From: Flagellimonas spongiicola
Lineage (GTDB): Bacteria; Bacteroidota; Bacteroidia; Flavobacteriales; Flavobacteriaceae
Assembly (NCBI RefSeq): GCF_023502425.1
Contig: NZ_JAMFMA010000001.1
Coordinates: 1 to 64,000, forward strand
Reading direction: 5' to 3'
Length of the DNA: 64,000 nucleotides
The translations under genes were made by a program, and so were the position numbers. Shown one piece after another: positions 41,344 through 46,715 of this stretch. The stretch's first letter is position 1, and each line of letters begins with the position of its first letter. The notes beneath the pieces are model-generated. The model ran no database searches, had not been told where the DNA came from, and worked only from the letters and a program-made list of their open reading frames with translations.

Positions 41344-41940
41344 TTAATTTTTAAACTTAAAGTCCATACCGAACAGAAAATAACCTAAAGTGAAATAATT
41401 GTTACCAACCATTCCGTTGATAGGTCTTATTTCATAAGCTATTTTCCTCTTAGGGAAATCTATTCGAAGCCCAATTGATACATTCCCGCCAAAATAGAAT
41501 GAATTGAAAAAAATGGAATGGCTATTTCTAACATCGCCATCTCCACCTGTTCCCAAAAGGCCTCTTGAGTAACTTGCAAATGGTCCAATTGAAGTTACAA
41601 AGGATACTGCTTTGTATTTCATAATGTCATAGTGTAGGTTGTATCCCAAGGTAGTAATACGATAAAATTGATTTGGAGTATCAGTAATTCCAAAAGGAAC
41701 GAATCCGCCTATCATCAGATTCGGATTTAATCTGAGTTTTTGTTTTTTTCCAAAGCTTTTTTGTAGCCCAATAGAGTAGATGATTCCTAGACCTCTTTCG
41801 GTCTCTCCTTCATTAAACCCAAAAGCAATACCTGTTTTTAAGGAATTTCTCTTGAATTCAATATTTTGGCCATAAACAAAGCTAGCGCACGAAGTAAGTA
41901 GGACTGTTAAATATAATGTTATGTTCTTTAGTTGCATCAC
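41344..41940 (-). CDS. Small outer-membrane beta-barrel protein, unknown function
   Basis: 198 residues. Signal peptide of about 25 residues ending SFVYGQ (a Cys at 18 could alternatively mark a lipoprotein). The rest alternates hydrophobic and polar residues with Gly/Tyr/Phe-rich turns and ends MDFKFKN, as in 8-stranded outer-membrane barrels. I do not recognise a family. It is the last gene of a three-gene group behind the metalloprotease lipoprotein, 36 bp after the small lipoprotein. Confidence 0.65.
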   Translation of the reverse strand: MMQLKNITLYLTVLLTSCASFVYGQNIEFKRNSLKTGIAFGFNEGETERGLGIIYSIGLQKSFGKKQKLRLNPNLMIGGFVPFGITDTPNQFYRITTLGYNLHYDIMKYKAVSFVTSIGPFASYSRGLLGTGGDGDVRNSHSIFFNSFYFGGNVSIGLRIDFPKRKIAYEIRPINGMVGNNYFTLGYFLFGMDFKFKN

Positions 41941-41976: not shown

Positions 41977-42414
41977 TTAGTCTGGTAATTCAAAAGCTCC
42001 CTCCAATAGTTCTGGAGTCAAAACATACTCATAAACCCGGGTGTCGATTTCTGTGAATATAGTGCCCTCCAATCTCGTAAAAACTCTTTCGTCGTCTATA
42101 AAACATAAATTCTCAAAATCTGAGATGGCTCTATGACATCGAAAGCCCATATTGGTATTTGAAATTCTAATTTCAACAAAATTTCCACATAAACCGCCAA
42201 CAAAGCTTTCAGGTATTGTATATGAACATTCATATGAAAAGTTGTTTAAAATTGTTTGCGTTGATGAATCCGTATCATTTGTGATTTGTACATCTTGACC
42301 AGTCTCATTTTTTAATACATATACGTATTTGAATTTTTCCTCTTCAGTATCTTCAATGATGCCACAAGAAGTGCACAAAAGTATTATGGATAAAAGTGAT
42401 AATAGTTTTTTCAT
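41977..42414 (-). CDS. Small lipoprotein, unknown function
   Basis: 145 residues. Lipobox LLCTSCGII (Cys17). The mature part has a charged start (EDTEEEKF) and beta-like segments; four cysteines (YECSY, GLCGN, FRCHR, NLCFI) could form two disulfides. No family recognised. It begins 9 bp after the metalloprotease stop codon, so the two are translated from one message and may act together. Confidence 0.7.
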   Translation of the reverse strand: MKKLLSLLSIILLCTSCGIIEDTEEEKFKYVYVLKNETGQDVQITNDTDSSTQTILNNFSYECSYTIPESFVGGLCGNFVEIRISNTNMGFRCHRAISDFENLCFIDDERVFTRLEGTIFTEIDTRVYEYVLTPELLEGAFELPD

Positions 42415-42423
42415 TATTATTAA

Positions 42424-44334
42424 TTAATTGCAATTGTCGTACATATAGACTCCAAATAGCTCATCAACAAAAGCTTCGGTTGGGTTAACGTGTTGATTTT
42501 TTAATCGTTCTTTCCATGTATGTGGACCTCTAGAGCGAAATAATGAAGTTTGAATTTGCCTTAAGGAATAATCACGAACACGGTCAATCGGCAATGTTTC
42601 ACGTATTTCTTCTTGTTGATTATAGTTGTCAGTTAAATCAATAACAATTGGAGTATATTGATTCTTGCTATGATGTCTAACTATTTGATCTTGCCTCCAT
42701 GAATTAAATAACCGCCTATCGTCTGTTGCTCTCGCGTTCAAAGCATTAGACCCTGAATAATTTAGATTAAGTTCTAAATATCTATCATTAGTAACAACGG
42801 TTTCCACGCCTGCTGCCCAACTTTCTGCCATGGTCTGTAGGGTACAGCCCATACTGCGTAAATTGGTGAAAAATGCTCGGTCCAAACGGTAATGACTGGC
42901 ATGCGTCATTTCATGGGTAACCAGACCGTAGATTTCATCACTTGCCATGGGTCTTCGGCCGTCTAGCCTACCCACCCTAATTTCGCATTTTGGGATTAGA
43001 CTGTATCTTCCCAAAGGATTTAAATCCAGATGGAACCCAGCGTCTTTGTTATATAATGCATTGATTCGTATCCAACTCCAATTGGGGTGTTTTAACCCAA
43101 ATTGCCCAACGGCTCTTTCGTAGAAATCATGGGAGGCATTATGAACCAAGGCATAAAATTGGCTTCTACCCCATGTAAAATTTTGGTTCCAACTACGCCT
43201 TCTATAGGTGCGTGTACCTCTATGTTTAGCTGCAATATAGGCGTTGCCGGCCATTACTTTGAATTTTCTGCGGGTATTGTTAAAGTAAACCGCATATTTC
43301 ACCCGTTGTGTGCGGGTGCTACTTGTTCTAAAATTCCCGTTTGCGTTTGTCCGTGCTCTTTTAATTACAAGATAACCCCATTTGCGCACCTTAACCTCTG
43401 CACCAACAACACCTACATTTCGTCCCAAGACATCCTCGCGCACCGTTATTCGCCCAGAGGGACTCCATCTGCGTCTTCTGGCTGTGGTGCCTTGTTCGGC
43501 TGCTATCATGGCTTCCACAGAAGCAAGGTCTATGATCAAGTCTTTTTGCTGATAACCCTTGGCCACCGCCTTAGCATAGCTGTAAAGTGTACCCGAGGTG
43601 TCGTTGGGAAGATAGAACTTTAGGGCTGCCAATTCTTCTTCATCCAGGTTATTGGTCAGTTTTAGGGCCTCCAGCTCCAAATATTCAAAGACTTCACCAC
43701 TATTGTCCACAGTTAAAATGTCTTTGGTGGTTTGGTTACGGGGCTGTTTTACCATGATTTCCCCTTCAGCCAAGCTTTCCTTGTCATCCATTTCCGGAGC
43801 AAAATAAAGGTCATTTAATCGTTCATTGTGTATGTTTTCTGGTATAGGGTAATCAAAGGGTACTACAGCATAGAGGTAGGAAAAGGAATCTGGGTTTTCA
43901 TCACCCTCCAATTCAGGGTCATCGTAAAAATCGCCTTGTTCCTCAATTTGGTAATGTAAAGGAATATTGGAAGCTTGAAGTATCGTATCTCTACTGATCA
44001 GATCATGTTCCAAACTATCTTTGGGTAAAAACCGATAGTAATAATGCGAAGGAAGAATTTCGATGCTTTGACCATTTTTAAAGGTTTTGGCAAGTTTGCT
44101 GTCTTTAGAACGGTGTTTGAGATTTACCAAAAGATTTTCAAATGCCGTATTCATATTTACCACGGTGTAGGGCATGTTGAGCTCTTCTCCTAAGATTACT
44201 GGTTTACTATCCAGTTGTTCTTTTTTGAGAATTTCATTCTGATTGGTTTCTAGATTCGACTCTTGTTGGCATGAAGTGACCAATAAAAGTAGGAGTGAAG
44301 TTGTAATAAGTGGAAAGTTAGCATGGTTTTTCAT
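42424..44334 (-). CDS. Putative HExxH metalloprotease lipoprotein
   Basis: 636 residues from the ATG at 44334; a start 63 bp upstream adds a polar head before the signal peptide. Lipobox LLVTSCQQE (Cys22). Order: a variable acidic region (about 30-270), an Arg-rich stretch (ARRRRWSPSGR, about 285) leading into a carboxypeptidase-regulatory-like beta domain (VVGAEVKVRKWGYLVIKRA then ANGNFRT), then a catalytic-looking part with LVTHEMTHASHY (HEMTH at about 474-478) and AESWAAGVETV (about 505), whose Glu could be the third zinc ligand of a gluzincin. The overall family is unknown to me. First gene of a three-gene group. Confidence 0.75.
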   Translation of the reverse strand: MKNHANFPLITTSLLLLLVTSCQQESNLETNQNEILKKEQLDSKPVILGEELNMPYTVVNMNTAFENLLVNLKHRSKDSKLAKTFKNGQSIEILPSHYYYRFLPKDSLEHDLISRDTILQASNIPLHYQIEEQGDFYDDPELEGDENPDSFSYLYAVVPFDYPIPENIHNERLNDLYFAPEMDDKESLAEGEIMVKQPRNQTTKDILTVDNSGEVFEYLELEALKLTNNLDEEELAALKFYLPNDTSGTLYSYAKAVAKGYQQKDLIIDLASVEAMIAAEQGTTARRRRWSPSGRITVREDVLGRNVGVVGAEVKVRKWGYLVIKRARTNANGNFRTSSTRTQRVKYAVYFNNTRRKFKVMAGNAYIAAKHRGTRTYRRRSWNQNFTWGRSQFYALVHNASHDFYERAVGQFGLKHPNWSWIRINALYNKDAGFHLDLNPLGRYSLIPKCEIRVGRLDGRRPMASDEIYGLVTHEMTHASHYRLDRAFFTNLRSMGCTLQTMAESWAAGVETVVTNDRYLELNLNYSGSNALNARATDDRRLFNSWRQDQIVRHHSKNQYTPIVIDLTDNYNQQEEIRETLPIDRVRDYSLRQIQTSLFRSRGPHTWKERLKNQHVNPTEAFVDELFGVYMYDNCN

Positions 44335-44473
44335 AAAGGATTGATTTGGGTTTAAATAACTAGACCTGTTTGTCAACTCAAAAAGACTGAAAATCAAAGT
44401 ATTCCAAAATGCATCTTAGATTTTGGAAGCTTTTTCTTTCAAGATATGCGCTCAATAATTGAAAACACGTACG

Positions 44474-44533
44474 AATTGACGTACTCACGTTTTTAATTGA
44501 CGGATACACTAATTGAGTTGACGGATGCCATAT
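44474..44533. repeat. Three direct repeats with exact 21-bp period
   Basis: AATTGACG at 44474 and 44495 and AGTTGACG at 44516, each followed by T/G-A-C/T and, in the first two, CAC. The phase of two helical turns is typical of sites for LytTR-domain proteins. They lie 140-190 bp upstream of the metalloprotease gene, within the 230-bp gap before the DUF418 gene. Confidence 0.65.
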
Positions 44534-44564: not shown

Positions 44565-45761
44565 CTATTTTTTTCGAAACACCTCAATTTTACCCCTGCT
44601 TAAACTGCGCCAAAGCCATTCAAATGGACCGTAGTGGAAATGGGACAACCAATATTTGCTATAGCTTAATTGCGCTGCCCAAATGAAAGCCACCATGATG
44701 AGTTGTTGCGATCGTTCCACTTTACCAAAATACCCTAATCCGTAGAAAAACAAAGCCATTGTGAGGGATTGAACTAAATAATTGCTTAAGGCCATTCTGC
44801 CAATTGCTGCAATTCGAGATAAGAGTCCTTTGGCACATTGTTTTTGGATGACCAGGATCATAATACCAACATAGCCTATGGCCATTCCAAGACTGCCCCA
44901 ATAATTGAACTGGCTACCCAAAAACATGGAGTATTGTAGTTTCCAATCGTGATGAAAATTAAAAATTACACCGAATGCTACAATTATTAGTGAAGGAAAC
45001 CCAACGAACAAAACGGATTTTATATAAACGCTTTTGCTACTTTTTCCTGTCAAAAATCCAGATTTGAACAATGCCATACCTAGTAACATCAAACCAAAAA
45101 CACGCCAGAAGATGTGTCCGAAAAAATAGGTGGTTTGCAACATTTGGGCGGTATGGTAACGTTGTGCCATTTGATTGGAGATACTTCCTTGATAGGCAGC
45201 TACCTCTCGCTGAATCAAATCGACATTAGGTGCCCAGCCGCCGGATATGCTTTGAATTACTTCTTTTGGGGCATTTAGCATTTGGAATCCTGTATAAAAA
45301 TCTAGTAGACTGCTAACTGAAAAAACAACAAGTCCTAGCGCTATCAAACCTTTTATGGATTGCTTTCGAAATGGATAGACTAAAAATGCGCAAAATGCGT
45401 ATGGCGCCAATATATCACCATACCAGACGAGGTAGGCATGCACTAATCCAATAATCAACAACCAAAAATTTCTTTTGTAATGGATCTTGAAGGACGACCT
45501 CCCCTTTTGTTCATATTTGGAAGTTATCAATAGCACGGAAGCACCAAACAGCAGTGAAAACAATGTCATGAATTTTTGGTCGGCCAGAATATGACTGGAA
45601 ACCCAAGTGATAAGATTCAATCCCTTTAAATCTTCAAACGCATTTGGGTTTAGATAAGCTTGTCCCACCATGGAAAAGCTTTGTACATTCATCAAGGGAA
45701 TACCAAGAATGGCAAATCCTCTTAATACATCTAGGGCGATAATTCTCGTTTTGTCCTGCAT
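44565..45761 (-). CDS. DUF418-domain membrane protein (YeiB-like)
   Basis: 398 residues, about nine to ten membrane helices. The N-terminus RIIALDVLRGFAILGIPLMN and the middle LFSLLFGASVLL plus YLVWYGDILAPYAFCAFLVY are characteristic; the DUF418 domain at the C-terminus has GRMALSNYLVQSLTMALFFY and ends near FEWLWRSL. Function unknown, possibly transport. It lies 108 bp downstream of the LytTR regulator on the same strand. Confidence 0.9.
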   Translation of the reverse strand: MQDKTRIIALDVLRGFAILGIPLMNVQSFSMVGQAYLNPNAFEDLKGLNLITWVSSHILADQKFMTLFSLLFGASVLLITSKYEQKGRSSFKIHYKRNFWLLIIGLVHAYLVWYGDILAPYAFCAFLVYPFRKQSIKGLIALGLVVFSVSSLLDFYTGFQMLNAPKEVIQSISGGWAPNVDLIQREVAAYQGSISNQMAQRYHTAQMLQTTYFFGHIFWRVFGLMLLGMALFKSGFLTGKSSKSVYIKSVLFVGFPSLIIVAFGVIFNFHHDWKLQYSMFLGSQFNYWGSLGMAIGYVGIMILVIQKQCAKGLLSRIAAIGRMALSNYLVQSLTMALFFYGLGYFGKVERSQQLIMVAFIWAAQLSYSKYWLSHFHYGPFEWLWRSLSRGKIEVFRKK

Positions 45762-45869: not shown

Positions 45870-46715
45870 CTAAGCGTTCAGCTGTTGCAATAAGGTTTTG
45901 GATTTTGCTCTAGATACTGGAACGGCCATGCCGTTGGTCAGAATAAGCTTAAGGTCTCGTGCGTTACCATCGGCACGGGTGACATGCTTTAAATTCACTA
46001 TAAAACTCTTGTGGCATTGTATAAAATCCTTTGAAGGAATTTGTTCCAACAAGACTTTCAAACGATTCCGAATGAGGTGTTTTTTGGTTTGGTCATGGAC
46101 TGAATAATACAATTCTGCATAATTGCCATCGGAACCTAAGGCAATAATATCCTTGGGGTTTAATTTGATTTCAAAATTGCCTGTTTCAGAATGTAGTGCA
46201 AATTCATTTTCCTCATGTGTTGCATTCAATTTGGATTGCAGTTCTTCTGTTATTCTTTCGGAAAGTAACAATTGCCTATGCATTGCACGTTGATGTTTAT
46301 ATGCTATCAAGGCAATTAATGGTATCAACCCAACCAAAAAAGTATGCCATTCAATACGAATTAGCAAGGGTAGAAATGGCTCTTCTGTTCTAAATGTGAA
46401 TTTTAGAAAAAGCGTGTTCCAAAACCCAATTAATGCAAAATCGTAGATATTGTATATAAATTCATGGCCCAATGTCCATTTTTCTTCGTCAATGTATCTT
46501 GGAGTAATCAGTTTGGCTAAGAAAAGATTTAAAGGCGCCGCCAAGGCAGTTATCAGGGTAAATGGAAATGCCAAGACAATCCGATCTATCCAATTCAATT
46601 CATCAAATCCATATGGCGCGAGAAAAACGAGTATAAAAAAGACTACCGAGGCAGGAATTAGGACATAAGCCCAGCCAAATCCTACAGGATGGGGTGTTTT
46701 TAAGAGTTTCATCAT
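45870..46715 (-). CDS. Membrane-anchored LytTR-domain transcriptional regulator
   Basis: 281 residues. Four membrane helices (about 12-32, 42-62, 88-106, 120-140), a short coiled segment, then a C-terminal LytTR DNA-binding domain (about 180-281: DIIALGSDGNYAELYYSV, FIQCHKSFIVNLKHV, NGMAVPVSRAKSKTLL). There is no receiver domain, so it probably senses a signal directly through its membrane part. Its start overlaps the glycosyltransferase stop by 4 bp (ATGA). The phased repeats at 44.5 kb are candidate binding sites. Confidence 0.9.
   Translation of the reverse strand: MMKLLKTPHPVGFGWAYVLIPASVVFFILVFLAPYGFDELNWIDRIVLAFPFTLITALAAPLNLFLAKLITPRYIDEEKWTLGHEFIYNIYDFALIGFWNTLFLKFTFRTEEPFLPLLIRIEWHTFLVGLIPLIALIAYKHQRAMHRQLLLSERITEELQSKLNATHEENEFALHSETGNFEIKLNPKDIIALGSDGNYAELYYSVHDQTKKHLIRNRLKVLLEQIPSKDFIQCHKSFIVNLKHVTRADGNARDLKLILTNGMAVPVSRAKSKTLLQQLNA

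Follow-up and report, generated by a model that had tools for sequence, protein, structure and literature searches.

The window, a 64,000-nucleotide stretch of the Flagellimonas spongiicola genome, contains a cassette of genes for exported proteins on its minus strand. The first gene (42424-44334) encodes a 636-residue lipoprotein or secreted metalloprotease-like protein with an HEMTH motif, which matched no Pfam or NCBIfam family. It is followed by a gene for a small lipoprotein of 145 residues (41977-42414), also found in orthologous cassettes, and by a third co-directional gene for an exported protein of 198 residues (41344-41940), a position at which one relative (L289) likewise has an exported protein gene. 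Upstream of the cassette, on the same strand, lie genes for a DUF418 membrane protein (44565-45761) and a membrane LytTR protein (45870-46715). Between the DUF418 gene and the metalloprotease-like gene, the sequence A[AG]TTGACG occurs on the plus strand at 44474, 44495 and 44516, with start-to-start distances of exactly 21 and 21 bp, so that the three phased repeats described in the initial annotation are present as reported. The further matches that it had noticed after each core are also real: on the minus strand, which carries the controlled gene, the unit extends to fit GGCATYCRTCAATTSAAA, and conservation covers about 18 of the 21 bp rather than 9. The promoter-distal unit, GGCATCCGTCAACTCAAT (44512-44529, minus strand), is the best match to the half-site consensus, with 2 mismatches to GGCATYCRTCAATTSAAA; the second, TGTATCCGTCAATTAAAA (44491-44508, minus), lies 21 bp from it, and the promoter-proximal unit, TGAGTACGTCAATTCGTA (44470-44487, minus), a further 21 bp on, is the weakest. 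Alignment with 97 other sites places a putative -7-like promoter element, TATCTTG, at 44440-44446 on the minus strand, 1 bp closer to the repeats than the phase common to those sites.

Chance can be ruled out as the origin of the repeats by controls with shuffled sequence and reversed patterns. Two matches to the phased-pair pattern occur in the window, and none arose in 100 dinucleotide-preserving shuffles. With a matrix built from the 97 sites, which were drawn from the F. spongiicola genome and three others, the two pairs in the window scored 39.8 and 29.0, and scores across 600 kb of reversed sequence stayed below 4 throughout. Genome-wide, the exact pair RTTGACG-N14-RTTGACG was found at the array and at two other loci (reversed control, 0), and a looser search for the core revealed conservation between the cores as well. 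A 27-bp pattern, TCAATTSAAANNNGGCATNCRTCAATT, allowing up to 3 mismatches, occurs at 30 sites in the 3.71-Mb genome; the reversed pattern occurs at none.

These sites share a consistent arrangement relative to genes. Nearly all are oriented toward a gene whose start lies 60-150 bp downstream, and the median distance from motif to ATG is 93 bp in this genome and 108 bp in three others, about 90-110 bp overall. The genes behind the sites mostly encode lipoproteins or other exported proteins (odds ratio of about 8). In a rule-based count for this genome, 12 of 29 downstream genes encoded lipoproteins, compared with 5 of 62 other genes at the same loci (p = 3e-4), and the corresponding figures for the three other genomes were 19 of 38 and 6 of 57 (p = 3e-5). 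In two genomes, the motif also stands before a gene for a DUF805-like small membrane protein (C7:480474, L090; and C13:162553 in genome G203, L202).

The motif is present in all 60 genomes of the genus that we sampled, with 834 sites in total, a median of 11 per genome, a range of 1-46 and a control count of 0. Across 148 other genera of the family, each represented by one genome, the same search gave 22 scattered three-mismatch matches against 2 for the control, and several of these are look-alikes of a single recurrent sequence; outside the genus, the paired unit is nearly absent from these genomes. Many copies per genome, some of them in tandem, would also be a property of a dispersed repetitive or mobile element with no operator function. 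However, conservation is limited to the unit of about 18 bp and the -7-like element and does not extend into the flanks, the orientation and the distance to the start codon are fixed, the targets are biased toward one class, and the repeats are kept at orthologous promoters, all of which makes such an element a scarcely credible source of the sites. Judged from sequence, the 21-bp-phased repeats in the window are instead a predicted operator array, one copy of a genus-wide switch sequence, and the operator is part of a putative regulon of genes for lipoproteins and other exported proteins that is found throughout the genus.

Alignment of the 97 sites gives a more detailed view of the promoter. 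The conserved unit is GGGCATYCRTCAATTSAAA, again about 18 of 21 bp. The search pattern fixed many of the columns, and part of the information content inside the motif is therefore a product of selection; neither the flanking CATYC columns before the pattern nor the -7 element after it was constrained in this way. An A-N-T-T-T element lies at +56 to +60 from the start of the motif (A 68%, T 65%, T 94%, T 87%). The flavobacterial -7 consensus is TAnnTTTG (PMC9723704), and the promoters resemble Bacteroidetes sigma-A promoters in having a TA-n-TTT-like element at a fixed phase downstream of the repeats (PMC9723704). They differ in that the last bases of the box are only weakly conserved and that nothing is conserved at the expected position of the -33 element, which would be expected where an activator takes over its role. 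The features expected of an activator-dependent promoter, namely an operator at constant phase to a core element, a single orientation and a common class of targets, are all present here. Given the uniform orientation, the ATG distance, the -7 phase and the bias toward exported proteins, we infer that the sites are activator-dependent promoter modules, which probably act by activation. In the mechanism that we propose, the three tandem half-sites, two helical turns apart, would form an operator just upstream of the cassette promoter; an activator would occupy two or three neighboring half-sites along the same face of the helix and, once bound, would touch RNA polymerase at a promoter with a -7-like element and without a conserved -33 element.

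Regulation of the secreted protease cassette by the repeats, as the initial annotation had suggested, gains support from its orthologues. Five orthologous cassettes were found in other species named as Flagellimonas or Allomuricauda/Muricauda, with 56-65% identity (one of them, at L208 in genome G178, with 57%), and in all five the repeats lie upstream, at 100-176 bp from the start codon. The F. olearia cassette is at another locus and still has three repeat units. There (L288, 4986-9960), it lies downstream of an infB-like translation-factor gene and includes an additional protease-like gene, which is shorter, together with several genes for small lipoproteins; this arrangement suggests local duplication.

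The other part of that proposal was a local circuit: the product of the membrane LytTR gene at 45870-46715 would bind the repeats, with the cassette under its control. The gene does lie 1.3 kb from the repeats, on the same strand, and the 21-bp period fits the spacing rule for LytTR sites (PMC4847170, PMC6193735). Nonetheless, this protein has no orthologue in the 59 congeneric genomes (best match, 30% identity), all of which carry the motif, and about 30 motif sites lie elsewhere in the same genome. In four syntenic relatives, the repeats and the protease gene come immediately after a glycosyltransferase gene, and both the LytTR gene and the DUF418 gene are missing from this place. The adjacent LytTR gene and the operator therefore do not co-occur across relatives, and we reject the protein as the regulator; a local circuit of this kind is very improbable. 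The simplest reading of the synteny is that the LytTR and DUF418 genes were inserted upstream of a promoter module that already existed, separating it from the glycosyltransferase gene, with repeated loss of both genes in the relatives being less parsimonious. The adjacent LytTR gene is then probably a late arrival, unrelated to the switch sequence, and we judge it to be a bystander. As a regulatory interpretation, the proposal holds for the DNA but names the wrong partner, and gene adjacency would be misleading here, since the nearest plausible regulator appears to be an insertion.

Another LytTR protein could still recognize the sites, either the LytTR response regulator at C6:1163478-1164227 or one of the eight core LytTR regulators common to genomes G000, G182 and G196. 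Published LytTR sites are direct repeats of 9-11 bp with spacers of 11-13 bp (PMC4847170), and the sites described here are similar to those of Bacteroides membrane-LytTR proteins and YpdB in their 21-22-bp period and GG[CT]ATTCA-like half-site (PMC6193735, PMC4847170). More specifically, the half-site GG[CT]AT[TC]C[AG] resembles both the TCCGG[TC]ATTCA of Bacteroides membrane-LytTR operons (PMC6193735) and the YpdB site GGCATTTCAT (PMC4847170), and the distance of 34 bp to the -7 box is that found in the Bacteroides operons (PMC6193735, Table 3). In addition, a two-component locus encoding a 7TM histidine kinase and the LytTR response regulator has two or three copies of the motif in many genomes. 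Conversely, although the period of 21 fits a LytTR-type operator, conservation here spans the whole 21-bp unit, about 18 bp of it compared with 9-11 bp (PMC4847170), and LytTR genes are not consistently associated with the motif, the neighboring one being itself not conserved. The motif does not stand immediately before the start of any LytTR gene, whether among the 29 in this genome or the 25 in G182 and G196. The response regulator has one copy 475 bp upstream, ahead of an RNA element. It is missing from G182, with 34 sites, and from G196, with 10, and genomes with few sites keep it with a LytTR domain that is nearly unchanged. We favored this response regulator (L063) at first for its three nearby motif copies; both its absence from G182 and the unchanged DNA-binding domain in the low-site genomes weakened the case. 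Taken together, we regard recognition by another LytTR protein as possible but rather unlikely. In F. spongiicola, the response-regulator gene (L094:5476-6228) has three motif copies within 3 kb and no adjoining 7TM-DISM histidine kinase gene, whereas the kinase is intact beside it in several congeners.

Ahead of the response-regulator operon, a motif copy is followed by a noncoding element that is conserved in 27 genomes. In F. spongiicola, this element lies on the minus strand at C6:1164497-1164628 (L094:6498-6629), and it has an invariant GTATGGGGTTATGCTG core; orthologous loci are among L100-L126, L214 and L311-L326. Its four-helix structure shows compensatory changes at 14 of 24 pairs; 96.5% of cells are paired, and no shuffle out of 500 did as well. 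No Rfam family matched the element above threshold, a second copy was absent from 59 other sources and there was no viral match; weak, sub-threshold matches to DUF805b RNA were found near the response-regulator locus. In many genomes, its 3' end is a stem followed by T-rich sequence, and the element may therefore act as a small RNA or an attenuator.

The width of the repeat unit directs attention to the AraC/XylS family. Like sites of this type, those described here are promoter-proximal direct repeats of wide half-sites (12-17 bp) with a period of about 21 bp. The Bacteroides HTCS regulators, which have AraC-type domains, have been assigned direct repeats of 16 + 5 bp and of 12 + 9 bp, giving a 21-bp period (PMC3878776), and these repeats fit the width and period of our sites better than published LytTR sites do. 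The resemblance extends to XylS at Pm, which also recognizes two direct repeats of wide half-sites (15 bp) at the promoter (PMC5481539), and to the HTCS regulons as a group, with direct repeats of 12-16-bp half-sites at a period of about 21 bp at the promoter (PMC3878776). The sequence is different, however, and the targets of this operator are surface lipoproteins and exported proteins dispersed over the genome rather than one catabolic locus.

Several AraC genes themselves have the motif in their promoters. Three families of short AraC proteins carry it before their own start codon. Family 1, with hydrophobic N-terminal stretches and an HTH_18 domain, is present in 30 of the 60 genomes, and a motif pair precedes the gene in 25 of these 30 carriers with up to 5 mismatches and in 29 of the 30 by matrix score. 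The motif is within about 120 bp of the start codon, with one of the 25 cases 306 bp from an uncertain start. Some family 2 proteins are short and others have a longer N-terminal fusion, and their genes have the motif in eight genomes; those of family 3, of 149 residues, have it in two. The long AraC paralogues that we checked have no motif. Carriers of family 1 have more sites than other genomes (median, 16 vs 9; p = 0.002, not corrected for relatedness). Counting against an AraC regulator, low-site genomes retain the family-1 recognition helices, and none of the three families was found in G203, which has 26 sites, or in certain other genomes. Family 1 was rejected as the sole regulator since the gene is absent from half of the motif-bearing genomes, G203 among them, and the AraC genes may belong to the regulon as targets without encoding its regulator. 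In F. spongiicola, a short AraC protein whose own promoter carries the motif is encoded at C6:272597-273319 (L074), next to a SusC-like gene; its N-terminal half is hydrophobic, membrane-like and divergent, and its recognition helices are invariant.

We favor an AraC-type regulator on the basis of the unit width, the Bacteroides AraC/HTCS precedent and the motif-bearing promoters of short AraC genes, and consider the chances that the regulator belongs to the AraC/XylS type to be about even. The short membrane AraC proteins with the operator in their own promoters are the nearest candidates. The explanation that best accounts for the data as a whole, to which we assign a probability of about 0.75, is a genus-wide operator and regulon that would act by activation through a regulator other than the adjacent LytTR protein, with the AraC/XylS type favored. 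A more specific model, which we put forward tentatively and at slightly less than even odds, is a genus-specific envelope regulon in which a probably membrane-anchored AraC-type activator would bind 21-bp-phased arrays of half-sites, with surface lipoproteins, proteases, several AraC genes and the structured RNA ahead of the histidine kinase/LytTR response-regulator operon as its targets.

In summary, a search for the repeat at its 21-bp period in this genome and its relatives, the check that the initial annotation had proposed, has turned isolated repeats into a defined regulon with a computable operator. A direct-repeat activator operator is of a known kind, and the regulon appears to be undescribed in the papers searched; we found no description of the operator in open-access papers, with most subscription journals outside that coverage, and searching the literature by exact sequence returned only unrelated papers, mostly on rRNA primers. 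Few activators and operators are known in this family. The operator predicts which surface lipoproteins and proteases would be activated together in a Flagellimonas/Allomuricauda cell, and the regulon offers a direct route both to naming the regulator and to probing the roles of the co-expressed surface proteins.
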